A stretch of 64,000 nucleotides of DNA, taken from the NCBI GenBank assembly GCA_012799605.1, contig JAAZKX010000011.1, positions 1 to 64,000 of the forward strand, given 5' to 3'. This DNA is from Bacillota bacterium. Its GTDB lineage: Bacteria; Bacillota; DTU030; DUMP01. Both the position numbers and the translations under genes were made by a program. Below the pieces are notes generated by a model that was not told the origin of the DNA, ran no database searches, and saw only the letters and a list, made by a program, of their open reading frames with translations. Of this stretch, positions 48,446 to 62,571 are shown piece after piece (the stretch's first letter is position 1; each line of letters opens with the position of its first letter).

Positions 48446-48591
48446 TAAAAAAGACCGCTTCAATCCGGAAGTGGCCTTTCTGCTCCTATCTTCCAGAATT
48501 GATATTCTGCAGGAATTGGCACATGGCCAGAAAGCCTCTGGCATGCTGCCGGGCTTCATTGGGCCAGTCCCTCCACCGCTCTGGATAAGAG
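48446..48591 (-). promoter_or_regulatory. SAM-I (S-box) riboswitch with terminator, upstream of metK
   Basis: Minus strand. P1 closes perfectly (CTCTTATC 48584-48591 with GATAGGAG 48483-48490). Between them are the canonical S-box blocks: CCAGAGCGGTGGAGGGA, TGGCCC-ATGAAGCCCGGCA, then GTGCCAATTCCTGCA and GAAGATAGG. Downstream, GGCCACTTC / GAAGCGGTC followed by T6 (48446-48476) forms the expression platform. Known behaviour: bound S-adenosylmethionine causes termination before metK. Confidence 0.95.
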
Positions 48592-48696: not shown

Positions 48697-49644
48697 TTAT
48701 GTCCTTTTACGCGCGGGACGCACGAATGAAGGCTGCTTCCCGCCGGTATGACCGCCGGTCGCCGGATCGGCGCCATGGTCAGATACAACCCGGATAGTAT
48801 GGTTAGATGCCAACAGTTCTGGCAGTACCACCTGATCGATTTGCATAAGAAAGGCTTCTTTTTCCCTTTTATCCATCCTATGCGCTGCTTCGTCGCAACC
48901 GCCAATATGCAACATGGTAAATGGGTATTTTTTTGCCAGTGCCAAGGTTAGACGGGTTTTTGTACCAAGATCAGTATCGGTATCACCAGTCATTCCAGTA
49001 AGCGACACATGGTACATTTTTAGTGCCTTTGCCAGGCCCCGAATTATATTTGTAGCGCTGACAACAGCTGCTTTTACCGGAAAGGGCGGCAGGGGTTGCG
49101 CTACAGATGCCGCCCACGGAATTATTAGCCGCCGAGGATTGCTACTGTTTAGCATGATCAGGGCCTCTCTCAGTGCCGGGATGTCAGGGCTGAAGAAGTC
49201 GCGGGCATTTCGACCCAGCATTTCAAACGGTAGTAAGGCCGGGATAGAGTCGACAAAGGATGCACCTTTCGGAATAATCAGCAAGCCCTTGTAGCCGCCC
49301 AATGAAACATATCGCGCTCGCTTCAACTTAGGTAGCTTGTCCGGTTCATCACAAAAACCGATGCCGATACCCTCATCGTCCACTTCAACCCAACTGCCAC
49401 GAAAAATCAAATCATCCGGCTTAAGGTCTATCCCTGCCCCCAGGGCCTCAATCCATCCTCGTATATTTTTGGGCGGGGAAGTAAAGCCAAGAAGTGATAA
49501 CACACAAGGTAGCGTCCCCGCTTTAAAGCCGTCTGGAACCGTATTCACATGCTCACGCCTAGGAAAAGAGGCTAAGGTAGGATATTTCTTTACATTAAAG
49601 TCAGGGTCATTCATGCCATCGATAATACATAGTATCTCAGACAT
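48697..49644 (-). CDS. ApgM-like alkaline-phosphatase-superfamily metalloenzyme
   Basis: 315 aa. Fold marks of cofactor-independent/archaeal phosphoglycerate mutase (ApgM): metal Asp in CIIDGMND (D9), nucleophile position KAGTLPCVLSLLGF with Thr44 where ApgM has Ser, second-site D/H in GGCDEAAHR, and SDHGADPATGGHTGG for the remaining metal ligands. The start is the ATG with a GGGG site, overlapping the cbiC end by 8 nt; the longer frame is rejected. Last gene of the cobalamin operon. Glycolytic mutase work is unlikely from this place; a phosphatase or phosphomutase on a cobalamin intermediate is one inference. I do not know an assigned role. Confidence 0.7.
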   Translation of the reverse strand: MSEILCIIDGMNDPDFNVKKYPTLASFPRREHVNTVPDGFKAGTLPCVLSLLGFTSPPKNIRGWIEALGAGIDLKPDDLIFRGSWVEVDDEGIGIGFCDEPDKLPKLKRARYVSLGGYKGLLIIPKGASFVDSIPALLPFEMLGRNARDFFSPDIPALREALIMLNSSNPRRLIIPWAASVAQPLPPFPVKAAVVSATNIIRGLAKALKMYHVSLTGMTGDTDTDLGTKTRLTLALAKKYPFTMLHIGGCDEAAHRMDKREKEAFLMQIDQVVLPELLASNHTIRVVSDHGADPATGGHTGGKQPSFVRPARKRT

Positions 49645-50272
49645 GGTAGTCCCCTGTGGCAATTCGAAGCAAGGCGTTACAAATGGCAGCAGCAACACTA
49701 CTGCCGCCTTTACGCCCCCGTGCTGTAATATACCGTAGGCCCGAGCGCATAAGAACATCTTTAGATTCCACCACATTTACAAAACCCACCGGCACCCCGA
49801 TCACAAGTTCCGGCAAAAGCCTTCCCGCCTGTTTGAGTTTACATATTTCTAATAGGGCTGTGGGTGCGTTACCGATGGCAAAAATAAGCGGCTTGTCAAT
49901 TGCCGCCGCTTTATTCATCGCCGCTTTGGCCCGGCTGCTACCATTTTGTTTAGCCGCCCTTACTACATCCGCATCGTGCATAAAGCATAGGAGATCCCCA
50001 CCGAATGCTGCCAGCCGCTTTTTATCCACTCCGGCTTTCACCATCTCGGTATCGCTGACGATGGATACACCCCTTTGCAGGGCCGCTACCGCATGCTCTA
50101 TGACACCTTCCGAAAAAACAAGGGTTTCCAAATATTCAAAATCAGCAGTGGCATGAATGACGCGCATAATCACCGGGGCAAGGTTTGGATTGAGAGGGAG
50201 AGGCAGTTCATTTTCTATCAACTCAAAACTGCGCCGTTCAATTTCAGCCGGTTTTATAAACTTCATAGTCAA
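49637..50272 (-). CDS. cbiC: cobalt-precorrin-8 methylmutase
   Basis: Shifts the C11 methyl to C12 to give cobyrinate. 211 aa. Family signature VIHATADFEYLETLVFSEGV with the catalytic His (about 40) and SDTEMVKAGV; later FAIGNAPTAL and PVGFVNVVESK. The start may be the TTG at 50272, whose AAGGGA site is at 7 nt, or the ATG two codons on. Overlaps the cobO stop. Confidence 0.93.
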   Translation of the reverse strand: MTMKFIKPAEIERRSFELIENELPLPLNPNLAPVIMRVIHATADFEYLETLVFSEGVIEHAVAALQRGVSIVSDTEMVKAGVDKKRLAAFGGDLLCFMHDADVVRAAKQNGSSRAKAAMNKAAAIDKPLIFAIGNAPTALLEICKLKQAGRLLPELVIGVPVGFVNVVESKDVLMRSGLRYITARGRKGGSSVAAAICNALLRIATGDYHV

Positions 50273-50796
50273 AATTCAATCCCTTCGCGGGCCGCAATTC
50301 CCCTATCATGGGGATGCTTGCACTTGATAAATTTTGTTATATAATCTGCTACCTCGATAAAATGGTCTGGGACGCTCCTACCGGTTAGTACCAGCTCCAA
50401 CCCAGCTGGTTTGTTCAAAATTAGCTTATCGGCTATTTCAGTATCGAGCGCACCCTGGGCATAAGCTACGCCGATTTCATCCAGAACCAGCAATTGACAC
50501 AAGCCACTAGCAACCAGACAGCGTGCTTTCAATAGGTTTTCATTGTTTTGACATCGCATTTCTGCCCGGTCTTGGTCAGAAGCAGAGCTGTAAAAGCCAA
50601 AGTCGCGGCTATTTCGCAGGACGGTTACACCAGCTAATTGCGCCAGCGCCCGTATTTCTCCAGTTTTGCGCCCCTTGAGAAACTGCACCAACACAGTCCG
50701 CATACCGCTTCCGTAGGCCCGAAGGAGCAGACCCAATGCTGCCGTCGTTTTCCCCTTCCCGTCCCCGATATAAAGATGAATCAAGCCCTTCCTCAT
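50269..50796 (-). CDS. cobO: cob(I)yrinic acid a,c-diamide adenosyltransferase
   Basis: Transfers the adenosyl group from ATP to reduced cobalt. 175 aa, CobA/BtuR family. P-loop GDGKGKTTAALGLLLRAYG at residues 12-30, with VLVQFLKG and LLVLDEIGVAYAQG. ATG with GGAGG upstream. After a 230-nt gap from cbiA. Confidence 0.94.
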   Translation of the reverse strand: MRKGLIHLYIGDGKGKTTAALGLLLRAYGSGMRTVLVQFLKGRKTGEIRALAQLAGVTVLRNSRDFGFYSSASDQDRAEMRCQNNENLLKARCLVASGLCQLLVLDEIGVAYAQGALDTEIADKLILNKPAGLELVLTGRSVPDHFIEVADYITKFIKCKHPHDRGIAAREGIEF

Positions 50797-51026: not shown

Positions 51027-52352
51027 TCATTTTGGGCAAAGCACCATCCTCCTCACAAAGCTAGCGGCGAAAGCAGGGTTAGAGGGAAAATAAAGATATG
51101 GGAATCCGGCATATAAGTTAGCTCTTGTATGAATACAAGGATAGCTAAGATCACGCCCGGCTTTCTTGGCCACGAAATGGTCACCGGGACTATCGCTATC
51201 CCAATAATGGAACTCATGCGAACGGATAGATTCACCGGCCCCACAGAGCAAATTATCCCGCCGCGCAGTCAAGGTAATGTACCCAAAACGCTGAAGGCGT
51301 TTTCTAGTAAATGCAGCCCCCCGAATTAGTCCGCACATGGGCATCCCATCTAAACTGTTGTGTAAGTAGACAAAGCCGCCCCCCTCTGCTATAGTCGGAA
51401 GGCCCCCTTCCACTGCTTGGCGGATGCTCTCGCGCATGGTTTTGTTTTTTGATAGAGCCCTGACATAACGTTCTGGGTAGCCGCCGCCCAAATAGAGCCC
51501 ATGGATCTGCCTTGGAATAGCACGATCGCGAAGCGGGCTAAAAAACAGCAATTCACAGCCTAATGCCTCAAGTAACTCCAGATTTTCCTTATACGAAAAA
51601 CAAAAAGCCTCGTCCCGGGAAAAAGCCAGCCGTACTTTCTTTTTTTGATAGTGCCGTATTGCTCGGGCAGCAGGCAAAGGAGGAGCTGTCTCCGCTAACG
51701 CCAACAGACCGTCCAGATCCAGGCCCCGAGCTGCTTGGCGGCCCAAAGCTGACAGAGCAGCGGTAAGAGCCGCCATCTCATCCGGTTTCAAAAGGCCGGG
51801 ATGGCAGTCTGGTAAGGCCCATTCATTCCTAGACGGCATTGCGCCATAAGAGGCAAGTCCCGCTTCCTCGGCGAAAGCCTTTAGATCAGGATAGCGGGCT
51901 GCACTGGCATGGTTAAAGATAACCCCGCTAATATGACTGGGGTGACGGTAGCGGGCAAAGCCCTTGATAGAAGCAGCTAATGACTTTCCGGCCCTCGCGG
52001 CGCTGACCACAAGGATGGTGGGCGTATTTGTCTCCCTGGCTACGGTATAGGCCGAGGCATCGTCGCTGGCACCGATACCGTCATAATAACCCATCGCCCC
52101 CTCTATCACCGCCACCTCCCCCGCCCGGCGGGCCAAATGGGAACGCAATCCATCGCCATCAAGGAAAAAGGGATCCAGGTTATAGGCACCAATAGCAGAA
52201 ACTGACCGGTGAAAGATGGGATCTATATAGTCAGGCCCGCATTTAAAGGCTGTGGCTATCACACCGCGCCCTTTCAGCGCCGATAAAATGGCGCAAGTCA
52301 CAGTAGTTTTACCACAGCCGCTGTGCGTTCCCGCAATCAGCAGCCGTTTCAT
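51027..52352 (-). CDS. cbiA: cobyrinate a,c-diamide synthase with altered glutaminase site
   Basis: ATP-dependent amidation of cobyrinate side chains a and c. 441 aa. N-terminal dethiobiotin-synthetase-like ATPase (about 1-190) with P-loop AGTHSGCGKTTVT and IEGAMGYYDGIG; C-terminal glutamine amidotransferase (about 238-435) with GLYLGGGYPE and the His in SHEFHYW (H379). The nucleophile position, normally Cys in AECGG, reads IAEGGGFVYL, so Cys is Gly324 (codon GGG, 51381-51383). The rest looks intact, suggesting an enzyme fed by free ammonia or a misread base. Overlaps cbiET by 4 nt. Confidence 0.92.
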   Translation of the reverse strand: MKRLLIAGTHSGCGKTTVTCAILSALKGRGVIATAFKCGPDYIDPIFHRSVSAIGAYNLDPFFLDGDGLRSHLARRAGEVAVIEGAMGYYDGIGASDDASAYTVARETNTPTILVVSAARAGKSLAASIKGFARYRHPSHISGVIFNHASAARYPDLKAFAEEAGLASYGAMPSRNEWALPDCHPGLLKPDEMAALTAALSALGRQAARGLDLDGLLALAETAPPLPAARAIRHYQKKKVRLAFSRDEAFCFSYKENLELLEALGCELLFFSPLRDRAIPRQIHGLYLGGGYPERYVRALSKNKTMRESIRQAVEGGLPTIAEGGGFVYLHNSLDGMPMCGLIRGAAFTRKRLQRFGYITLTARRDNLLCGAGESIRSHEFHYWDSDSPGDHFVAKKAGRDLSYPCIHTRANLYAGFPYLYFPSNPAFAASFVRRMVLCPK

Positions 52353-53542
52353 AAGTTATCCCCGCCTACACTCAAGATGGTAATAGGGTTTTGAGCTTGC
52401 ATCAGATGCAAATCCCCGCTTCTCCTGCCCCGGGCGACATTTAGCTGCACAATTTCCGGCTCTAAACCAAGGGCAGAGAATTTGCTAATTGCTTGAGCCA
52501 CAGTTTCAATGGTCACTGCGGTAATAACAATTCGCGCTCTCGGATTCTTGGCCAAAACGGCGGCCAGGATCGCCTGTACTTTGCCGCCGCTGCCGCCGAT
52601 GAAAACTGCATCAGGCGGAGGAAGGGCCTCCAATACCTCCGGGGCTTCCCCACCGATGAGGGAAACGTTCCCCACCTTAAAGGCAGCACAGTTTTCCTTA
52701 ATCAAGGATAGGCCCTCATCACGGCGCTCCACAGCATATACATGACCGTCATAGGCATTAAGCGCCATCTCTACCGTCACCGAGCCAGTTCCGGCACCGA
52801 GGTCCCAGCAGACAAAGTTTGGGCGTAGGTTTAGCTTCGACAGCACAACCGCCCGGGTTTCACTTTTAGTCAGGGGAATCGTAGCCGAGCGAATAAAACA
52901 ATTGTCTGGCAACCCGACTGGGGTTGTATCGTCAAACGCTTCGTTTTCAAGCAGTAATACTGACAGCGATGGGAAATCCCCCTGCGCCAGGGCCTCCAGC
53001 TGTGTTTCATAAACACGTTCGTCCTCCGTACCCAGGTTTTCCCCCACGAAGGCCCTTATTTTTTTGAAGCCGACATCGCCTAACATAGCGCCGATTTCGT
53101 TGACCTTGTTCCCTGTGAGACAAAATGTTAGGCGATTGCGCCGTACTGTATCGATGATAGCCAAGTCCCTCCCATGGGTACTCACAAACACCGCATCCTG
53201 CCAGGGCAGCTTTAACCTAGCAAAAAAAGCAGCGACAGTAGAGATGCCCGGTACGAGGCGGACCTGATAGGCTGCCAACGCCGTCGTCAGTCCTATCGCT
53301 GCACTATAAAAGCCCACATCACCAGATACGAGCACAGCAAATTCCGCCGCCTCCTCCTTAGCAACAATAGCTGATACCTCCTGGGGTAAATAACAGGGAT
53401 AAGAACGAGCGTGAGATCCTTTGAATAAATTCAACAGCCTGGGCGCGCCCAAGAGAACATCAGCCTGCGCTATCGCTTGCCGCGCGTCCCCCGTAATAGT
53501 GCCCTCCCCCAAACCTACACCGACAATATTTATCCTCTTCAT
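52349..53542 (-). CDS. cbiET: cobalt-precorrin-7 C5,C15-methyltransferase (CbiE-CbiT fusion)
   Basis: 397 aa, two enzymes in one chain. CbiE half (about 1-205): tetrapyrrole methylase with GVGLGEGTITGDARQAI, VSGDVGFYSAAIGL and VPGISTVAAFFARL. CbiT half (about 210-397): Rossmann methylase with DLGAGTGSVTVEMAL, the S-adenosylmethionine motif, and the decarboxylation at C12 follows. Equivalent to CobL of the aerobic pathway. ATG. Confidence 0.93.
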   Translation of the reverse strand: MKRINIVGVGLGEGTITGDARQAIAQADVLLGAPRLLNLFKGSHARSYPCYLPQEVSAIVAKEEAAEFAVLVSGDVGFYSAAIGLTTALAAYQVRLVPGISTVAAFFARLKLPWQDAVFVSTHGRDLAIIDTVRRNRLTFCLTGNKVNEIGAMLGDVGFKKIRAFVGENLGTEDERVYETQLEALAQGDFPSLSVLLLENEAFDDTTPVGLPDNCFIRSATIPLTKSETRAVVLSKLNLRPNFVCWDLGAGTGSVTVEMALNAYDGHVYAVERRDEGLSLIKENCAAFKVGNVSLIGGEAPEVLEALPPPDAVFIGGSGGKVQAILAAVLAKNPRARIVITAVTIETVAQAISKFSALGLEPEIVQLNVARGRRSGDLHLMQAQNPITILSVGGDNL

Positions 53543-54291
53543 AGGCCCAACCTCGCAATGTGTCTACAGGCTATTTCTACGGAAACACCTCCGCGGTCAT
53601 TCGGTTTTGCCAGTACCGCCGTGAGCATTCCTAGGCTTTTGGCCGCGCGAATTTTTTCGGGAAATCCACCTGTACGGCCTGAATCCTTGGTCACGAGAAT
53701 TCTAGCTCCGGTGGCCTTAAACATGGCCCGGTTGAGCTCCTCCGAAAACGGTCCCTGCATACAAATAAGCTTGTCCGGACCGTAGCCAAGAGCAAGGCAG
53801 TGACTGAGACTATTTATACAGGGTAAAACGCGCAGCCAGACTCGCTGCTGATATTGTGGCAAGCCTACAAACACCCTAGCCGAAGACGAACCTGTGGTCA
53901 CAAAGATGCCGCCTGGCTCCCCTTTGAGCCAATCTATCAAATCATCCATATTATCGAAGTAGATGCAGGCTCGCTCTTTGACACTTTCTCTAACAATGCG
54001 TACAAGAGGAATATTCGCTCGCCTACAAGCGAGAGCGATATTTCGGCTGGCTTCCTCAGCATAGGGATGGGTGGCATCATAAACTTGGGCAGGAACGTTT
54101 TCAAACAACAGTTCAGCCATCTGGTCTACCCCCAGCCGCCCAATCCGCACCTCCACCAGCGGCAAGGCTTCAACCGCGCGAGCACCGGCCTCAGTTGCAA
54201 CAGAATATATAATCGGAACCCCACAGTGGGCGCCAATCTCACATAGTTTCCGCCCTTCGCTGGTGCCCCCGAAAACAAGAGCCTTAATCAT
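53539..54291 (-). CDS. cbiJ: cobalt-precorrin-6A reductase
   Basis: NADPH- or NADH-dependent reduction of the macrocycle. 250 aa, CbiJ/CobK family with FGGTSEGRKLCEI at the start, DATHPYAEEASRNIALAC, GGIFVTTGSSSARVF and the terminal TKDSGRTGGFPEKI. Start at 54291 (ATG, GGGG 8 nt upstream); overlaps both neighbours. Confidence 0.92.
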   Translation of the reverse strand: MIKALVFGGTSEGRKLCEIGAHCGVPIIYSVATEAGARAVEALPLVEVRIGRLGVDQMAELLFENVPAQVYDATHPYAEEASRNIALACRRANIPLVRIVRESVKERACIYFDNMDDLIDWLKGEPGGIFVTTGSSSARVFVGLPQYQQRVWLRVLPCINSLSHCLALGYGPDKLICMQGPFSEELNRAMFKATGARILVTKDSGRTGGFPEKIRAAKSLGMLTAVLAKPNDRGGVSVEIACRHIARLGL

Positions 54292-55015
54292 GACCATATC
54301 CCCTGGGTGTAACCATGCGTCCGCCGATATTACGGGTTCCTGTGTTACCGATAAAAACGATTTCCGTCATCCCAACTACTTCCGTTCGTAGTTTACCTAA
54401 AGTCGTAATCGAAATCGATTGCCCTTCCCGAGCAATATTACGGGCAATTCCACAGAGGCGATCTTCCGGTATTTTTTCTAGCAAGATATTACAGGCAGCG
54501 CGCAAATGCCCTGCTCTTTGCTTGCTGCCGGGATTGTATAAGCATAGAACAAAATCGCCCTCAGCGGCAGCCCGCAAGCGCTTTTCGATAATTTCCCACG
54601 GGGTCAATAAATTGCTGAGGCTGATCACGACAAAGTCATGACCGATGGGCGCGCCTAGCAAGGCTGCCCCGCTTACTGCCGCTGTCACGCCTGGAATAAC
54701 CTCGATCTCAATTTCCGGCCCCTTTTCAGCAAGTTCATATACTAGGCTTGCCATCCCATAAACCCCACTGTCGCCGCTGGAGACAAGGCTTGCAGTTTTT
54801 CCGCTTTCCACCAATTCGATGGCTTTGCGGCAGCGTTCTACTTCTTTCCCCATCCCTGTTTCGTAATAATCCTTATCCGGAAATAGCGGACGCAACCGTT
54901 CGATATAGGCCGTGTAACCTACGATAACATCTGATTCGCGCAGGCACTTGCAAGATAATTTTGTCATATTCCCAGCGTCGCCGGGTCCAAAACCAACAAC
55001 ATACAATTTACCCAC
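54284..55015 (-). CDS. cbiH: cobalt-precorrin-3 C17-methyltransferase
   Basis: Ring-contracting methylase. 243 aa, tetrapyrrole methylase fold with LYVVGFGPGDAGNMT, SSGDSGVYGMASLV, VIPGVTAAVSGAALLG and LVLCLYNPGSKQR-type NPxS motif. A GTG at 55015 has AAAAGGGG upstream and overlaps the cbiG stop by 8 nt; two TTG codons further up are less likely. Confidence 0.93.
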   Translation of the reverse strand: MGKLYVVGFGPGDAGNMTKLSCKCLRESDVIVGYTAYIERLRPLFPDKDYYETGMGKEVERCRKAIELVESGKTASLVSSGDSGVYGMASLVYELAEKGPEIEIEVIPGVTAAVSGAALLGAPIGHDFVVISLSNLLTPWEIIEKRLRAAAEGDFVLCLYNPGSKQRAGHLRAACNILLEKIPEDRLCGIARNIAREGQSISITTLGKLRTEVVGMTEIVFIGNTGTRNIGGRMVTPRGYGHD

Positions 55016-55823
55016 TTGCAATCCCCTTTTCAAACACCGCCACGGCTACGCCATCTTTGGCTGTTTTTTGTAAAATTAGTTTACCAGCGCGACCGCACAA
55101 GGCAGCCGCGCGTTCACAGACATTATCAACCCCTACCGTCCGCAAGACCAGATCGGAAGAGGTAAATTCACCTTGGACTTGTGCCAGTTCTGCCGCCGAA
55201 TAAAAGTGAAGCGGAAGATTGTGCGCCGCTGCAAAGCCGAGCAAACCTTCCTCCTGCCGCTTAAGATCGAGCGTGGCTAGCTGGCAAATTCGGCTGAGGG
55301 AGATTTTTTGATCTCCCAGTAAAATGGTCACCGCCCGTTCGATGGTTTTGGCTGAAGTCCCCCGCCGACAACCGATCCCCAAAACCAGGTTCTGCGGCTG
55401 CTGCTCGCTTAAGCTGACAGCGTAACAAGCGCTGGCAGTGGTAATTACCGGAGTAGCGTTGACCAAGGCGGCTATTTGCTCCGTTAATTGATTTGCCCCC
55501 CCTGCGTGTCCCGACAGGAGGCTAATAGCAAAACGCCCCCTTTCATCACAAACCACCACAGCCGGATCAGTTCTTTTGTCCTTCACCAGCGGTGCGATCG
55601 CCCGCACTGCAATGCCACAAGCACCGACGAAAACCAATGCATCCTTCTGGTCAAATAGTCGGAACGCAAGTTCATAAACAGAATCGAAGGGTTCAAACAC
55701 CCCCCCTTTGGCCTGGCGTGCAGCTAGATAATAGCTTATTTCGTGTCCTCGGTCCTGCAAGGCCCCCAACCGCTCCATTAGGGCGGCACCGCTGGTCGAG
55801 AAAGCAATGGCAGCGATCCTCAT
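55008..55823 (-). CDS. cbiG: cobalt-precorrin-5A hydrolase
   Basis: Opens the lactone and releases acetaldehyde in the anaerobic pathway; its presence identifies that pathway. 271 aa. N-terminal CbiG_N with FVGACGIAVRAIAPLVKDKRTDPAVVV split region and SLLSGHAGGANQL; C-terminal CbiG_C starting LVLGIGCRRGTSAKTIERAV. Overlaps cbiF by 4 nt. Confidence 0.93.
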   Translation of the reverse strand: MRIAAIAFSTSGAALMERLGALQDRGHEISYYLAARQAKGGVFEPFDSVYELAFRLFDQKDALVFVGACGIAVRAIAPLVKDKRTDPAVVVCDERGRFAISLLSGHAGGANQLTEQIAALVNATPVITTASACYAVSLSEQQPQNLVLGIGCRRGTSAKTIERAVTILLGDQKISLSRICQLATLDLKRQEEGLLGFAAAHNLPLHFYSAAELAQVQGEFTSSDLVLRTVGVDNVCERAAALCGRAGKLILQKTAKDGVAVAVFEKGIASG

Positions 55824-56581
55824 TCCTTTTTCCCCCGATATTCAGTAGAGAAATCTGGGGAATACAGGCGGGACAAGTGGTAAAGATCTCCGAGAAAATC
55901 ACCAATACAAACGAGCGCAGTTTTGCTGATCTGATTCTCAGCGGCACTTTTGGCCAGGCTGCTGACAGTACAGCGAATGATTGTCTCTTGCGGCCAGCTT
56001 GCCTTATAGACAATAGCGGCCGGAGTATTAGGCCCATATCCGCCGGCAATTAAATCTTTGGCTACAGATTCCAATAAGCCAGCGCTAAGAAATAATATCA
56101 TTGTTGCCCCATGTGCGGCTAGCATACGAATGCTTTCTTTTTTCGGCACTGGAGTCTTGCCGGCAGCCCTTGTAATGATAACGGTTTGGGAAATTCCAGG
56201 CACAGTGTACTCGCTTTTTAAAGCAGCCGCAGCAGCAGAAAAACTTGACACCCCAGGGCAGATCTCATATTTGATACCGAGGGCACTTAATTTAGCCATC
56301 TGCTCCCGTATAGCCCCATACAAGCTCGGATCGCCTGTGTGCAAACGCACAACAGTCTTGCCCTGACCGACGGCGGTCTTCATAATTTCCACCACTTCAT
56401 CCAACGTCATCTTAGCGCTATTGTGAACCTCACTTTCGCGCCTAAGATCCAAAAGCAGCTTAGGATTCACCAAGGAACCGGTGTATATAACTACATCCGC
56501 CCCTTCAAGCAGTAACTTTCCGCGCAAGGTGATCAAATCCGGCGCCCCGGGTCCGGCTCCGACAAAATGCACCATACTCAT
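55820..56581 (-). CDS. cbiF: cobalt-precorrin-4 C11-methyltransferase
   Basis: 253 aa, tetrapyrrole methylase with VHFVGAGPGAPDLITLRG, VVRLHTGDPSLYGAIREQM and CPGVSSFSAAAAAL. Good GGAGGAG upstream. Four-base overlap (ATGA) with cbiD. In the anaerobic route it acts after CbiH. Confidence 0.95.
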   Translation of the reverse strand: MSMVHFVGAGPGAPDLITLRGKLLLEGADVVIYTGSLVNPKLLLDLRRESEVHNSAKMTLDEVVEIMKTAVGQGKTVVRLHTGDPSLYGAIREQMAKLSALGIKYEICPGVSSFSAAAAALKSEYTVPGISQTVIITRAAGKTPVPKKESIRMLAAHGATMILFLSAGLLESVAKDLIAGGYGPNTPAAIVYKASWPQETIIRCTVSSLAKSAAENQISKTALVCIGDFLGDLYHLSRLYSPDFSTEYRGKKE

Positions 56582-57672
56582 ATCGAAAACAACTCCTCCA
56601 TTTTTTCGCCCCTTCCGCTAAAGCAAACCAGGCTAATATCAAGACAGCGGGCAAAATGTCGTTCCAGCATATCTTGGATCCGGTCGCGTAACAATCGTAT
56701 TGTAATATCCATCCATTCTGTTTCCCGCAGGCAATCAAGGGCAGCATCAGTAGTGACCTGATCCTTTATTTGGTGGAGCAATTCCAAAGGTGCCCCTGCT
56801 TGCAGCGCCACGGCGATCAGGGCCTCTATCCGCCCATCGCCATAACTAGAATGAGTGTTTGTGATGCCAATAGCTAGCTTGATGATCTTTCCAATATGCC
56901 CAATTAACAAAGCACGTCTAAATCCCCTTTCCGCCGCGGCCGAGAGGGTTTCACCGATGAAGTTCGAGCATTTGACATGGGATTCCAGAGACAGACAGAG
57001 TTTGTTTCGGGCAAATTGTTCACCATAATTTCCAATAGTCAAAACCACTTCCCGGTAACCAGCCACATATAAAAGGCTGAGCTGGGCCCTAAGGGTCCCT
57101 ATTATTGCGCTTTCACTCCTGGGTTCAACGATACCAGTTGTACCGAGAATGGAAAGCCCGTCCGCAATGCCTAAACGCGGGTTAAACGTACGCCGGGCTA
57201 ATTCCTTACCGTCTGGGATGGAGATAATAATCGACAAGCCGCCGCTATAATTATAGTTCCTACAAACAGTTTTACACTCTTTATAAATCATTTGGCGCGG
57301 TATCGTATTGATGGCATGGGCACCCACAGGCTGATCGAGTCCGGGCTTAGTTACGCGCCCGATCCCTTGGCCACCGCTGATTTTAATCCCAGCGGGCGCA
57401 AGGGATACAGAAGCATAAACGTAGCAGCCGTTTGTTACATCCGGGTCATCACCACTATCTTTTTGGATGGCGCAGGAAACACACCCCGGCAACAGCTTGA
57501 TATCCAGCACCTTCAACCTTAAGGTAATTCCGCTCGGTGTTACTAATGTCACCGCCTGACAAGGAGTTTGCCTCAAGAGCATTGTGGTCGCCGCTTTTGC
57601 CGCCGCTGCCGCGCAAGATCCTGTGCTATAGCCTCGGCGTAGCATTTTTCCACCAATAAAACGAAATTTCAT
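56578..57672 (-). CDS. cbiD: cobalt-precorrin-5B C1-methyltransferase
   Basis: 364 aa. CbiD signatures: RRGYSTGSCAAAAAKAA near the start, IGRVTKPGL, GGLSIIISIPDGKELA and TSGI-type LSILGTTGIVEP. ATG at 57672, GGGG upstream, next to the ABC ATPase stop; the frame's longer version overlaps that gene and is rejected. CbiD is specific to the anaerobic pathway. Confidence 0.94.
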   Translation of the reverse strand: MKFRFIGGKMLRRGYSTGSCAAAAAKAATTMLLRQTPCQAVTLVTPSGITLRLKVLDIKLLPGCVSCAIQKDSGDDPDVTNGCYVYASVSLAPAGIKISGGQGIGRVTKPGLDQPVGAHAINTIPRQMIYKECKTVCRNYNYSGGLSIIISIPDGKELARRTFNPRLGIADGLSILGTTGIVEPRSESAIIGTLRAQLSLLYVAGYREVVLTIGNYGEQFARNKLCLSLESHVKCSNFIGETLSAAAERGFRRALLIGHIGKIIKLAIGITNTHSSYGDGRIEALIAVALQAGAPLELLHQIKDQVTTDAALDCLRETEWMDITIRLLRDRIQDMLERHFARCLDISLVCFSGRGEKMEELFSI

Positions 57673-57673
57673 A

Positions 57674-58432
57674 CTACAATTCCCCGAACAGCTCGGTATA
57701 GGTTCCAGCTGGCAGATCATAAAGTCGGCTAATGGTTTCTTCCGTAAAAATAGCCTCCGGTTCACCGAGCTCCATAACATAGCCATTTTTTATACAAATC
57801 ACAAGATCAGACACCCGTCTGGCATAATTTAATTCATGTAGGGACATAATCACCGTCACCTTGCGCTCAGTAGCTAGCCGGTGCAAAACATCGAGGATTT
57901 CCACCGCATACCGTATATCTAAAAAAGAAGTCGGCTCGTCCAAAATGATGATTTCCGGCTCCTGGCAAAGCGCCCGGGCCAACATGATACGCTGCAACTG
58001 ACCATCGCTCACTTCAGTTAAATTTCTGTCCATTAACTCCAGAGCCTTAACCAAGGACAGGGCTTCAGCAATCTTTTCTTTGTCTTCGTCGGATAAAATC
58101 CCCAGCTTGCCCGTGTAGGGATAGCGCCCCACCGCCACTAGTTCTCCGCAGGTCATCAGCTCCGGCTGAGGCCGTTCAGTCGACACAATGGCCATCTGGC
58201 GGGCTAGCCTTTGGGGATTGATAGCTTCAAGTGGGGTGTCATTGATCAAAGCCACACCGCTAATGGTTTTCAGCTGACTGGCCATGCTTTTAAGTATGGT
58301 TGATTTACCAGAGGCATTGGGGCCAATTAAGGTGGCTATCTGTCCCTTTTTGACAGACGCTTCAATGTCTTTGACAACAGGCCTACCATTGTAACCCACG
58401 GTGAGTTTTTCGGCGCGGAAATAATATTCCAC
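57674..58432 (-). CDS. corrinoid/iron-siderophore-type ABC transporter ATPase
   Basis: BtuD/FecE-like. 252 aa. Walker A LIGPNASGKSTILK, Q-loop near STERPQPE, signature VSDGQLQRIMLARAL (slightly altered LSGGQ, reading VSDGQ), Walker B IIILDEPTSFLDI. The start is a GTG with GGAGGAG that overlaps the permease stop by 1 nt. Operon position points to cobalamin or precursor import. Confidence 0.9.
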   Translation of the reverse strand: MEYYFRAEKLTVGYNGRPVVKDIEASVKKGQIATLIGPNASGKSTILKSMASQLKTISGVALINDTPLEAINPQRLARQMAIVSTERPQPELMTCGELVAVGRYPYTGKLGILSDEDKEKIAEALSLVKALELMDRNLTEVSDGQLQRIMLARALCQEPEIIILDEPTSFLDIRYAVEILDVLHRLATERKVTVIMSLHELNYARRVSDLVICIKNGYVMELGEPEAIFTEETISRLYDLPAGTYTELFGEL

Positions 58433-59427
58433 TACTCTCCTCCCACCCTCCCGGCCATAATCCAAATGACTACCGGCGCGCCCAACAAGGAGCTGACCGA
58501 ACTGATACTCATCTCCATTGGAGCATAAATTGTTCGGGCAACCAGATCGCAACCGAGACAAAATACTGCGCCGCCAAGGAAACAAAAGGGAATCACAATG
58601 TGTGGCTTGGAGGTCCTGGTAATAGCCTTAATAAGATGTGGCACGGCAACTCCCACAAATGAAACCGGGCCGGCAAAAGCTGTTACACAGGCGCATAAAA
58701 TACTAGATAGTAAAATGAGTAAGATCCGAAACACCCTGATGTTTACCCCCACACTTTGCGCATAACTTTCACCCAGCCGATAGGCACTGATGGGCTTAGA
58801 AAGAAAAAAAGTAGTAACCGCTGCCACAAAGATCACCGCCGCCATCACCCGGACATCGGCCCACGATGTCCCAGAAAAACTGCCCTGTGACCAATGGTGC
58901 AGGTTGACAATATTTTCATCACTTGCAAATACAACCACGAAATCAGTAATGGCCGAGCAGATATAACCAATCATCACCCCACTGATAATGAGTGACGAGG
59001 TGCGATTGACCCGCCGCGCCACCGCTAGCACAAAAGCCATTGAAAGCATGGCCCCGACAAAAGCTGCAGAAACTATCATCTTTGAATTGACAGTAAAACC
59101 CCGGCCCAGGACAAATACCATAACCAAAGCCACAATCAACTTTGCCCCCGCAGAAATGCCCAACACAAATGGCCCCGCGATGGGATTGCCAAAGAAAGTC
59201 TGGAGTAAAAAACCTGACAGCGCCAAGGCGCCGCCTAAAACAGTAGCGGCAGTCAAACGCGGAAGTCGCACTTTCCACAAAATATCGTGTTCGATTGTGT
59301 TTGGGATCAGAGCCTGGCCCAGCGGCATCTTGACACTGCCCATTTTGATGTTCAGCCCCACTAAAGCGAAAAAAAGTAGGAAGAGCACGAGCGCTATCAA
59401 TAGCTGGCGCATGCGCCAGGTTCTCAT
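58432..59427 (-). CDS. corrinoid/iron-siderophore-type ABC permease
   Basis: BtuC/FecCD family, 331 aa, about ten transmembrane helices. Signature stretches: TVLGGALALSGFLLQTFFGNPIAGPFVLGISAGAKL and FAGPVSFVGVAVPHLIKAITRTSKP with the ATPase-coupling loop; LDLVARTI-type ending CDLVARTIYAPMEM. ATG at 59427 with GGAGTAG. Partner of the flanking lipoprotein and ATPase. Confidence 0.92.
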   Translation of the reverse strand: MRTWRMRQLLIALVLFLLFFALVGLNIKMGSVKMPLGQALIPNTIEHDILWKVRLPRLTAATVLGGALALSGFLLQTFFGNPIAGPFVLGISAGAKLIVALVMVFVLGRGFTVNSKMIVSAAFVGAMLSMAFVLAVARRVNRTSSLIISGVMIGYICSAITDFVVVFASDENIVNLHHWSQGSFSGTSWADVRVMAAVIFVAAVTTFFLSKPISAYRLGESYAQSVGVNIRVFRILLILLSSILCACVTAFAGPVSFVGVAVPHLIKAITRTSKPHIVIPFCFLGGAVFCLGCDLVARTIYAPMEMSISSVSSLLGAPVVIWIMAGRVGGE

Positions 59428-59452
59428 TACTACTACTCCTTCCTTCACTGTA

Positions 59453-60610
59453 TCACTGTAATTTATAATAATAATTCAGCTTTGTCTTGTTATTTGTTTT
59501 ACCCGTAAATATCCGATTCAGGTCTGCTATCATCGAGCCAAACTCGGTCGTCTCCTGAAAGAGATTCTTGTTAGTACACCAGACATTTCCGCTTTTTACC
59601 GCCTCGAAATCAGCCAGCAAATGGCTTTTTGCCAACAGTTCAGCCAGGCTATGCACTTCACCATCGATAGCACTATTGTATATAATGATGTCTGCCTTCT
59701 TGGCCCTAGTATAGAAATGCTCCAAGTCAAGATTCATCGGTCCCGCTCCATTATCAGAGTCGCCGCTATCGGCAAATACATAACGTCCGCCCGCAAGCTC
59801 TATCATCTTACTGGTGTAGTCGCCACCCTTGCGCACCACCGCATTGCCAGCTGAACTGATATAGAAGAAGGCAACGCTTTTACCGGTACTCTCAGACGGT
59901 ATCCGGTGAAGATATGTGACCTGTTCATCAAACAAGGTTTGGGCTCGTTCTTCTTCCCCACATAGCAATCCGTATAGCTTAATCCATTCGGTTCTTCCCA
60001 AAGGATGGGGCTCATAGCTGGAGCGTTCCACCAGGACCGGGATACCCAGGTCCTCCAACTTTTCTTTAACCTCTGGCGTATGCAAAATCATTGTGGACTC
60101 AATGGCTAGATCGCAGCCTTTTGAAATCAACAGTTCATAATCCGGTGCACTGTACTTACCTGCATAAACAATATCGCCTTCTTCCATCGCCACCCGTGCC
60201 TTTTCAATGTACCAGCCATCTGCCTTCGTGCCACTCATGGAAATATGGTCCAATGAGTTTAAGGCATCAAAAAGGCACATAGCCGAGGTTGCTGCTAAGT
60301 AAATGTTTTTCAGCGGCTGGCGGAGGATAGTGACATCGCTACTGATATTGGCCGGAGGCTCCTTCCCTTCGGGGACCAGAAGGAAACACCCGCTTTCGCT
60401 TATTGATATTAAAGAGCAGCCATTAGCCAGATGGTCAACAATAAATTGCTGCGCGTATTCAAGATCCATTCTGTCCACGATCTTTAAACCATCAAAGTTT
60501 ACTGCATCTGGCCCCTGGCCACAACCGGGCAGTGCCAGGGCCAGAAGTAACGCAAACAAAATGGGCCTTAAAATTTTACTGGACTGAAGCCGGGTCGAAT
60601 CGCAAATCAT
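59453..60610 (-). CDS. ABC transporter substrate-binding lipoprotein (BtuF/FepB-like)
   Basis: 385 aa. Signal sequence to about 30 with lipobox LALPGC; then a periplasmic-binding class III fold with ISMSGTKADGWYIEKARVAM, LISKGCDLAIESTM and LVERSSYEPHPLGRTEWIKL. The ligand may be cobalamin, a corrinoid or heme. Start at the ATG with GAAGGAG. Overlaps the CbiK-like gene end by 35 nt. Confidence 0.88.
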   Translation of the reverse strand: MICDSTRLQSSKILRPILFALLLALALPGCGQGPDAVNFDGLKIVDRMDLEYAQQFIVDHLANGCSLISISESGCFLLVPEGKEPPANISSDVTILRQPLKNIYLAATSAMCLFDALNSLDHISMSGTKADGWYIEKARVAMEEGDIVYAGKYSAPDYELLISKGCDLAIESTMILHTPEVKEKLEDLGIPVLVERSSYEPHPLGRTEWIKLYGLLCGEEERAQTLFDEQVTYLHRIPSESTGKSVAFFYISSAGNAVVRKGGDYTSKMIELAGGRYVFADSGDSDNGAGPMNLDLEHFYTRAKKADIIIYNSAIDGEVHSLAELLAKSHLLADFEAVKSGNVWCTNKNLFQETTEFGSMIADLNRIFTGKTNNKTKLNYYYKLQ

Positions 60611-62201
60611 ATTCAATCTCCTTCGGAGTACTCATGGCAACGGTACAAGCCTTGATCGGTAAGTCCACATCAAATTCAATGGGGATTTCAAAGGTAGAGT
60701 TACCCTCCACGTTAATGGGCATAAATTTCACCCCATCCACCAACAGGTAAGTATAGTTGGGGCTACTCCAGACAATACGCGCCATATTTGTTCCCTTGCG
60801 ATAAAATAGGGTTGCCGGAGACTCTATGCTAGCTTTTCCTGCTCCGCCTGTCATTTCAACCTTTACCTGGGCCGGAATAAAAGCCTCCTCCGGTATATTT
60901 TCTGATTGAAAGATAATAAGATGATCATACCAGTTCCCGCTCTTGGTTCCTTGTCCCGCACAATCGAGATCAATATCTAGGGCGGCCACAGGCACGGTAA
61001 AGGTATGTTTGCCGTCAAGAAGGAGGGGGCTGATCTGATTTGCTTCGTCAGCCGCTGCCTCCGCCCCTTTACCCATGTAAAGGGCGGAATATCCGCGACC
61101 ACTTAGTGTAATAGTGGCCATCATCTTCTTGTCTTCTACCGTCAACTGGCAATCTACAATTTTGAACATCGCGGTATCAGAATCAACCTCAATTGAATAG
61201 GTGCCATTTTGAATTCGGGCCGCGGTAACACCAGCGGCAGCTGCCGCTGGTACTGCCTCAACAGGGTCTCCAGCAATTGCCTCTTGAAGATGGCGAATAT
61301 AAATATCTTGTATACCCTTGATTTGCCCGAGACCTTTAAGCACAGTTTCTACCATGTAGCCATCTTCCTCAAGGATTGTCCGCCATGAATCTTCGCCGGC
61401 CCCGGCCATATCATTATTAGCATGATCCCCGGCAACCACCATCAGCGGCCGCAGAACCACCTTGCTAATACCCATTTGGGACAGCTGTTCTCGCACTTGA
61501 TCGATCTCAATCCCCCGCTCCACTGTTCCAATAATATAATCATGGTAGCCCTTGGCCGCCAGGACAGCCTGAAGTTTTACATAAGTGGCCCTGGCCTCAT
61601 GTTCTGTGCCGTGCCCCATGAATACAAGTGCTGTATCATCCGCCCTGAACTTTGCAGTTTCTTTTACAATTAGCTCGCTAACTTCATCATAGTCAGCCTC
61701 ATCAGCGAGGAGCCACTTGCCAATTTTGAGGCTGTCAAACTTGTCCGCAAAAGGCATCACTTCCTTAATCATATCTTCGTACTCAAAGCCATTCATCACT
61801 GTGGTCGGTTGGACTATAACTTCCTTGACCTTATCGAGCACCAGACGGTTCATCGCCTCAGTTACGTTATCAATGACCAGGCCTTCGCGTTTGGCCAGCT
61901 TATCGATGATAATTTGGCTGGTAAATGCCCTCCGCACCTGGTAATTAGGAAAAGCGTTTTGGATTGCGGTTTCAATGCCACCAATGTTAAGGTTTCGGCT
62001 TTGGTTATAGCTGGTACCAAAGCTAACCACTAAAATCACCTTGTCAGTGGCTGATGTGTTGACAATATCATCTGTTTCAGAAATACCCACTTCATAACCA
62101 TTAGAATAGTCCCCATTATTTACAGTGGCTGAGCACCCGGCAATTAGCGCCAGTGATAAGGTAATAACCAGTACGAGCGCTAAAATCCTACCTTTTCTCA
62201 C
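60576..62201 (-). CDS. exported CbiK-type cobaltochelatase lipoprotein with tandem beta domains
   Basis: 541 aa. Signal sequence with lipobox LALIAGC (Cys about 23), so membrane-anchored outside. Chelatase domain (about 52-310) of sirohydrochlorin cobaltochelatase CbiK with its catalytic residues: His197 in FMGHGTEHEA, Glu228 in IGTVERG, His260 in MVVAGDHANND. Then an Ala-rich linker and two beta-rich repeats (about 325-435 and 445-535), each with a Tyr-rich strand (RGYSALYMGKG; PNYTYLLVDGVKF), that look like NEAT-type modules, but weakly. GTG start with GGGAGG. First gene after the cobalamin riboswitch. Confidence 0.82.
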   Translation of the reverse strand: MRKGRILALVLVITLSLALIAGCSATVNNGDYSNGYEVGISETDDIVNTSATDKVILVVSFGTSYNQSRNLNIGGIETAIQNAFPNYQVRRAFTSQIIIDKLAKREGLVIDNVTEAMNRLVLDKVKEVIVQPTTVMNGFEYEDMIKEVMPFADKFDSLKIGKWLLADEADYDEVSELIVKETAKFRADDTALVFMGHGTEHEARATYVKLQAVLAAKGYHDYIIGTVERGIEIDQVREQLSQMGISKVVLRPLMVVAGDHANNDMAGAGEDSWRTILEEDGYMVETVLKGLGQIKGIQDIYIRHLQEAIAGDPVEAVPAAAAAGVTAARIQNGTYSIEVDSDTAMFKIVDCQLTVEDKKMMATITLSGRGYSALYMGKGAEAAADEANQISPLLLDGKHTFTVPVAALDIDLDCAGQGTKSGNWYDHLIIFQSENIPEEAFIPAQVKVEMTGGAGKASIESPATLFYRKGTNMARIVWSSPNYTYLLVDGVKFMPINVEGNSTFEIPIEFDVDLPIKACTVAMSTPKEIEYDLRFDPASVQ

Positions 62202-62284
62202 ATTCAATCCTCCCTACTCAGTTTGCCTTACAGTTAAGGCGTTTTTGTCAGCGTCTGTTATTTTGTTGGCCCATTGGGAACAGC

Positions 62285-62571
62285 AAAAAAGCGAAGATGC
62301 AATGCATCTCCGCAACCGATTTCTCGCAGACCCCCTATCTCCTGTACTCGCAGGTTAGATATGGCAATCAAAGCCGGTCTCCTGACTCTCGTGTTGGTGG
62401 TATAAACCACAGTCCATTGCTCTGCCTTACCGTATAAATCACAGTGGCTGACTTGCGCCAACGAACAATGGACACACGCCTACAGTGGCGGTACCGTGCG
62501 GTTAAACGCAAAGCGCTCTCCGCGTTCCCAGTTAATCCGGTCGGCAACCCCTCTTAAGTTATTTCCCAATG
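62285..62571 (-). promoter_or_regulatory. cobalamin riboswitch with terminator
   Basis: Minus strand. The B12 box GAGTCAGGAGACCGGC lies at 62373-62388 (consensus AGYCAGGAGACC), and the core CCGCCACTGT at 62482-62491. GGTTGCCGACCGG and TTAACTGGGAACGCGG occupy the 5' part. The expression platform is a stem GCGGAGATGC / GCATCTTCGC followed by T6 (62285-62313), which would end transcription when corrinoid is bound. It controls the operon that begins at 62201. Confidence 0.92.

Follow-up and report, generated by a model that had tools for sequence, protein, structure and literature searches.

CbiU, an ApgM-like metalloenzyme encoded at the end of a Bacillota cobalamin operon, as a probable L-threonine phosphotransferase

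The terminal gene of a cobalamin biosynthesis operon in a Bacillota bacterium (positions 48,697 to 49,644, minus strand, of the 64-kb stretch of DNA that was analyzed, hereinafter the window) encodes a protein, CbiU, of the alkaline phosphatase superfamily that we consider to be, with a probability of roughly three in four, an L-threonine phosphotransferase ('kinase') that makes L-threonine-O-3-phosphate for CobD and replaces PduX. CobD is the decarboxylase of this compound. The direct evidence on CbiU comprises the predicted fold, the set of presumed metal ligands, the placement in a single clade, the gene context and the absence of PduX. The protein belongs, as a distant relative, to a family for which the same function was proposed in 2015, and the comparative evidence presented below independently supports that function; new here are the comparative test itself and the finding that PduX and full-length ApgM-type proteins almost exclude each other among CobD-bearing Bacillota.

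The cbiU-type gene and its operon

The first-pass annotation, made from the DNA letters of the window, had placed the gene at the end of the cobalamin operon, translationally coupled to cbiC. Both the coordinates and the terminal position are upheld, the operon of corrin-ring genes starting behind a cobalamin riboswitch. In the following list, the genes from cbiC to cbiD are named from the best NCBIfam match, which in some cases is below the curated cut-off.

48483..48591, minus strand: SAM riboswitch (RF00162) of metK (the next gene, by eye), bordering the far side of the operon end
48697..49644, minus strand: CbiU-type ApgM-like gene, 315 aa, Thr44 at the nucleophile position, final gene of the operon, confirmed as real
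49637..50272, minus strand: cbiC, sharing 8 nt with the start of the CbiU gene
50269..50796, minus strand: cobA/btuR, adenosyltransferase
51027..52352, minus strand: cbiA
52349..53542, minus strand: cbiET fusion
53539..54297, minus strand: cbiJ
54284..55033, minus strand: cbiH
55008..55823, minus strand: cbiG
55820..56581, minus strand: cbiF
56578..57786, minus strand: cbiD, with the profile match from residue 49 on
57674..58585, minus strand: ABC transporter ATPase (labeled by eye; similar genes in other cob clusters)
58432..59448, minus strand: FecCD-type permease (labeled by eye)
59453..60616, minus strand: substrate-binding protein (labeled by eye)
60576..62207, minus strand: cbiK-like chelatase with a C-terminal extension (labeled by eye)
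62355..62567, minus strand: cobalamin riboswitch (RF00174, 37.7 bits, gathering threshold 31.5), heading the operon

The ATG of the CbiU gene (49,644) lies within the 3' end of cbiC (stop at 49,637) and is preceded by AGGGG; given this signal and the 8-nt overlap, the claimed translational coupling is plausible. The 230-nt gap between cbiA and cobA makes a second promoter possible, and the onset of the cbiD profile match at residue 49 implies that the real cbiD start is probably more internal. CobD, CbiB and CbiP of the same genome are encoded on a different contig.

The cbiK-like gene of the window codes for 543 aa in total, the C-terminal extension being long, and the equivalent place in locus L065 is occupied by a frame of 1763 aa that resembles CbiK. 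The operon of the window is nearly complete except for CbiL, of which no match over the cut-off was found in this genome (best match 45.8 bits, at the cbiF gene; assembly 92.5% complete). Four genomes encode a CbiP (cobyric acid synthase) of only about 290 to 330 aa (L055:572-1477, in the genome of the window, G000:C54; L142:151-1020, in G004; L058:9012-10004; and L073:5005-5883), in which the synthetase domain joins the last ~30 residues directly and the entire glutaminase domain is gone. These short forms align with one another across the junction and are possibly ammonia-dependent or supplied by a separate glutaminase.

Protein family, predicted structure and active site

The identification of the protein as an ApgM-like metalloenzyme holds: it passes the Pfam cut-offs for PF10143 (39.7 bits, cut-off 21.5) and for PF01676, the metalloenzyme/alkaline phosphatase superfamily (34.4 bits, cut-off 24.3). 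The AlphaFold model, built from 23 sequences (pLDDT 93.3, pTM 0.91), matches archaeal ApgM (2ZKT) over the whole length (Z 27.3, 3.5 A over 293 aligned residues); the matches to iPGM, phosphopentomutase and alkaline phosphatases have Z scores of about 15 to 17.5. The model for the phosphonoformyl transferase PhpG (NF038358) is matched weakly. The window protein shows no GHMP kinase match in the Pfam search and no match to the CobC family of histidine phosphatases (TIGR03162) in Pfam and NCBIfam, and it lacks the motif PG(S/T)CGELVQG that is present in the alignment of Bacillota PduX-type proteins and that we take to be characteristic of PduX. In addition, no ATP-binding motif was identified in CbiU, which counts against the kinase reading.

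When 27 CbiU relatives are aligned with 28 ApgM-type proteins of full length and a single archaeal ApgM, the columns D9, D251, H255, D289, H290 and H299 are invariant in all 27 clade members; by reference to iPGM, we assume that these residues are the metal ligands and that residue 44 is the nucleophile. The earlier observation that all ligands are present and that Thr occupies the nucleophile position thus stands, and this column contains Ser in 19 and Thr, as in the window protein (Thr44), in 8 of the 27 members, so that Thr is ordinary variation rather than a lesion. Also invariant in 27/27 are R62, R82 and K229, and the clade is further marked by Leu or Met replacing the Asp after the nucleophile, Cys47, Asn248-Gly249 and Gly297; the window protein departs from this signature in having Gly at residue 248.

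The predicted ApgM fold would agree with a phosphoglycerate mutase, but this function is highly improbable for CbiU. The window protein falls far short of every NCBIfam model of the family, the apgM models included (117.1 bits against a cut-off of 320 for TIGR00306; 95 against 489 for NF003104); the DRRAGR motif, which presumably has a role in ApgM, is absent from all 27 CbiU sequences and present in the archaeal ApgM row; and the same genome encodes a separate 533-aa metalloenzyme-family protein (contig C44, 267.5 bits) that, by its length, is an iPGM. Nor do the homologs occur mainly in glycolytic contexts: all clade loci with enough flanking sequence are cob clusters. The score, the second phosphoglycerate mutase candidate and the cob context led us to drop this reading.

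A CbiU clade linked to CobD

In a tree of 56 sequences, all 27 CbiU proteins lie on one side of a branch with 100/100 support, apart from the ApgM/TIGR02535 proteins; the tree has long branches, including that of the window protein (1.54), the exact place of which within the clade is unsure. An alignment-based scan of public genome contigs produced 23 loci, of which 22 belong to the clade and the other encodes an archaeal ApgM; L015 clusters with the archaeal ApgM in the tree. The titles of the clade loci include Oscillospiraceae, Peptococcaceae, Clostridium vincentii, Sedimentibacter and Peptoniphilus. Single-sequence pattern scans of genome and viral contigs detected no relative, and a tblastn search against plasmids retrieved three Bacteroidales ApgM-type matches, the one inspected being located between thrA and thrC.

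CobD and a cob cluster accompany CbiU at 21 of the 22 public-genome loci, the exception being a 3.5-kb contig, and in 14 of these loci CbiU directly adjoins CobD. With six loci from a search of the phylum added, CobD is present in 27 of 28 loci, which correspond to 26 distinct places (L040 is the same as L063, and L044 the same as L075). Among the best-scoring 30 CobD loci of the phylum, a PduX-type gene lies beside CobD in 24 and CbiU in none. The genome of the window does not display the adjacency, which counts against the kinase reading: its CbiU follows cbiC, and CobD is on another contig (C54). In two of the clade loci, a conserved protein of 120-140 aa is encoded between cobS and cobC (L044:8371-8742 and L042:13445-13840), and similar genes are found in L064, L072, L073 and L077; it matches no NCBIfam family, one possibility being a CobU-like fragment.

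The CobD neighborhood would also be expected if CbiU acted elsewhere on the linker arm, as a kinase of L-serine (for norcobamides), ethanolamine or free (R)-1-amino-2-propanol, substrates that differ by a single methyl or carboxylate. We consider this unlikely, given that the CobD of the same genome exceeds the cut-off of the L-threonine-phosphate decarboxylase model (316 bits).

The first-pass annotation had favored a phosphatase step in cobalamin assembly, with alpha-ribazole phosphate or adenosylcobalamin phosphate as the substrate, and had suggested a search for co-occurrence with cbi operons that lack cobC. The involvement in cobalamin assembly is retained, whereas such a non-orthologous CobC is improbable. 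CbiU does belong to the alkaline phosphatase superfamily and sits in a cob operon, and no CobC-like gene was recognized in the fetched flanks of 13 of the 22 public-genome loci; at the other 9, however, CobC-like histidine phosphatases are encoded in the same cluster (the two in-cluster proteins that were scanned score 90.7 and 97.4 bits, below the TIGR03162 cut-off of 162.9), and the genome of the window itself has, outside the window, a CobC-like protein that scores close to this cut-off (160.5 bits). Moreover, the constant neighbor of CbiU is CobD, and the absent enzyme is PduX. A genome-level CobC search (E 1e-12) was left out as evidence, being positive in 22 of 23 CbiU genomes but also in 13 of 14 controls; the argument draws on the in-cluster genes and on the near-cut-off protein of the window's genome. 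This first idea was dropped because CobC-like genes occur in the same clusters.

Phyletic patterns of CbiU, PduX and ThrB

In a sample of 398 Bacillota genomes, CobD was detected in 213, PduX in 119 and CbiU, which is accordingly rare, in seven (profile matches of 342 to 413 bits, the next match scoring 173.5). All seven genomes, which come from four families, four of the seven from a single one, carry CobD and none carries PduX (p 0.004 for the exclusion among CobD-positive genomes, uncorrected for kinship); at E 1e-30, no further ApgM-type protein was matched in any of the seven. PduX is likewise absent from 22 further CbiU genomes, including two of the seven, and from the genome of the window (0/23; best match 30.8 bits, compared with 138 to 461 bits for accepted PduX calls), where the best match, of 29.1 bits, falls on the ThrB gene. 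The PduX profile consists of Bacillota sequences encoded beside CobD, the identity of which as L-threonine kinases rests on the neighborhood, on weak GHMP matches and on the motif mentioned above, and a very divergent PduX could escape it.

A missing PduX alone proves little since both PduX and CbiU are absent from 92 CobD-positive genomes of the sample. Under the thresholds applied, 40 of these also lack an ApgM-type match, which makes it probable that there is another threonine kinase or a divergent PduX. From the window's family, six other genomes were sampled (G001-G003, G005-G007); these encode neither CobD (E 1e-70) nor CbiU and are therefore uninformative on function. According to Shelton et al. 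(PMC6461909), the majority of verified producers lack pduX.

CbiU could also be a TIGR02535-type homoserine kinase that merely travels with cob genes, in line with its profile similarity to this family and with the location of some full-length relatives next to homoserine dehydrogenase and threonine synthase genes (in part assigned by eye). This reading is very doubtful: the score of 89.6 bits is far below the 446.3-bit cut-off of this 'proposed homoserine kinase' model; no thr genes were recognized around CbiU in the fetched flanks of the public-genome loci; and the GHMP homoserine kinase ThrB exceeds its cut-off in 22 of 27 CbiU genomes, that of the window included, so that CbiU is not needed as a homoserine kinase there. 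The presence of ThrB and the low TIGR02535 score were the grounds for dropping it. With CobC-like genes often in the same clusters, the phosphatase and homoserine-kinase roles are thus mostly filled. The similarity to TIGR02535 by itself fits phosphate transfer to an amino-acid hydroxyl, as in the L-threonine phosphotransferase that we propose.

Full-length ApgM-type proteins and PduX

For the wider census, every genome with an A3 profile match between 123 and 174 bits was assigned to the ApgM class. Of 11 full-length Bacillota/Bacteroides ApgM-type proteins checked against NCBIfam, 10 pass the TIGR02535 cut-off, the eleventh being that of G004 (366 against 446.3 bits). Of the CobD-positive sample genomes that lack CbiU, those with PduX encode an ApgM-type protein in 1 of 114 cases and those without it in 52 of 92; when a single genome is taken per family, the respective numbers are about 1/34 and 28/53 (median p 3.5e-7). 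In the three families that hold both classes, every genome has either PduX or an ApgM-type protein, never both. A homoserine-kinase role cannot account for all these proteins because 29 of the 52 PduX-less genomes also have ThrB over the cut-off.

An ApgM-type protein is encoded within a cob cluster in G004, from the window's own family (CobD-BtuR-ApgM), and in G323 (CbiP-ApgM-CbiA). Most of the other ApgM-type/CobD pairs are far apart, as judged by eye from the listed coordinates, which argues against ApgM having a cob role throughout, and 34 of the 185 CobD-negative sample genomes also carry an ApgM-type protein. The exclusion of PduX and ApgM favors, without proving, a wider use of the ApgM fold as a threonine kinase. 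It is conceivable, and we suggest this only tentatively, that Bacillota generally replace PduX by phosphotransferases of the alkaline phosphatase superfamily, with CbiU as the specialized clade and TIGR02535-type proteins recruited separately, as in G004 and G323. If so, a homoserine kinase and a threonine kinase would have arisen in each of two unrelated superfamilies, GHMP (ThrB/PduX) and alkaline phosphatase (TIGR02535/CbiU), and the two enzymes of the latter would relay phosphate, possibly with no need for ATP.

Proposed reaction and its implications

In the proposed reaction, D251/H255/H299 and D9/D289/H290 would hold a pair of divalent metals (Mn or Zn) that activate Thr44. This residue would accept phosphate from a donor such as ATP, phosphoenolpyruvate or some other phospho-compound to form a putative phospho-enzyme and pass it to the beta-hydroxyl of L-threonine, the candidate substrate. 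CobD would then turn L-threonine-O-3-phosphate into aminopropanol phosphate, the cobalamin linker, for CbiB. If CbiU is the enzyme, the gap is closed in one group of Clostridia, and the substrate and the assay can be named at once. An enzyme of the alkaline phosphatase superfamily would then act as an amino-acid kinase, which would caution against the annotation of such proteins as phosphoglycerate mutases.

Comparison with known systems

In Rupakula et al. 2015 (PMC4285132), Dehre_1608 of Dehalobacter restrictus is proposed to be an L-threonine kinase and the gene is named cbiU; the protein is ApgM/TIGR02535-like, and its cob operon has a cobalamin riboswitch and lies in a genome described as lacking pduX. 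The window protein resembles it in being of the ApgM type with TIGR02535 similarity, in its riboswitch-led cob operon and in its genome, which has CobD but no PduX. It also shares a clade with the Dehalobacter-type proteins (L042, L043 and L045 among the 27 CbiU rows, the name Dehalobacter being presumptive). The latter are 374 aa long, compared with 315 aa for the window protein, which is 32% identical to them, comes from another bacterial family and follows cbiC, whereas Dehalobacter CbiU follows CobD. In a literature search that covered a minority of subscription papers, the name cbiU was not used in later cobalamin papers, no other relevant paper joined 'L-threonine kinase' with 'phosphoglycerate mutase', and no measurement of L-threonine kinase activity of CbiU was found.

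PduX of Salmonella and BluE of Rhodobacter are L-threonine kinases according to PMC6249242 and PMC8123684; in the engineered B12-producing E. coli of PMC6249242, threonine phosphate comes from either of the two. The proposed product of CbiU, which would serve CobD, is the same, and PduX-type genes also adjoin CobD, but the Bacillota PduX-type proteins give weak GHMP-kinase matches whereas CbiU is a metalloenzyme of the alkaline phosphatase superfamily.

The TIGR02535 and bacterial ApgM-type proteins have the fold and the ligand set in common with CbiU and likely represent its ancestral stock. They differ in length (~400 aa) and in their Ser-Asp at the nucleophile, the corresponding residues of CbiU being Ser/Thr-Leu/Met, with an invariant Cys three positions further. 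They also have His-x-Glu-Ala in place of the His-x-Asn-Gly of CbiU and fall in a clade of their own. According to the GapMind paper (PMC7311316), BT2402, a TIGR02535 protein, matters for growth without threonine; it failed to complement an E. coli thrB mutant, which we count against the kinase reading of CbiU. The archaeal ApgM structures (2ZKT, 3KD8 and 3IDD) match the CbiU model over the whole length (Z 27.3 to 19.5) at 20-22% identity, CbiU being shorter and devoid of the DRRAGR stretch. Finally, PhpG, the phosphonoformyl transferase, is a named relative in the family that relays a group between different molecules, and the relay proposed for CbiU can be likened to it.
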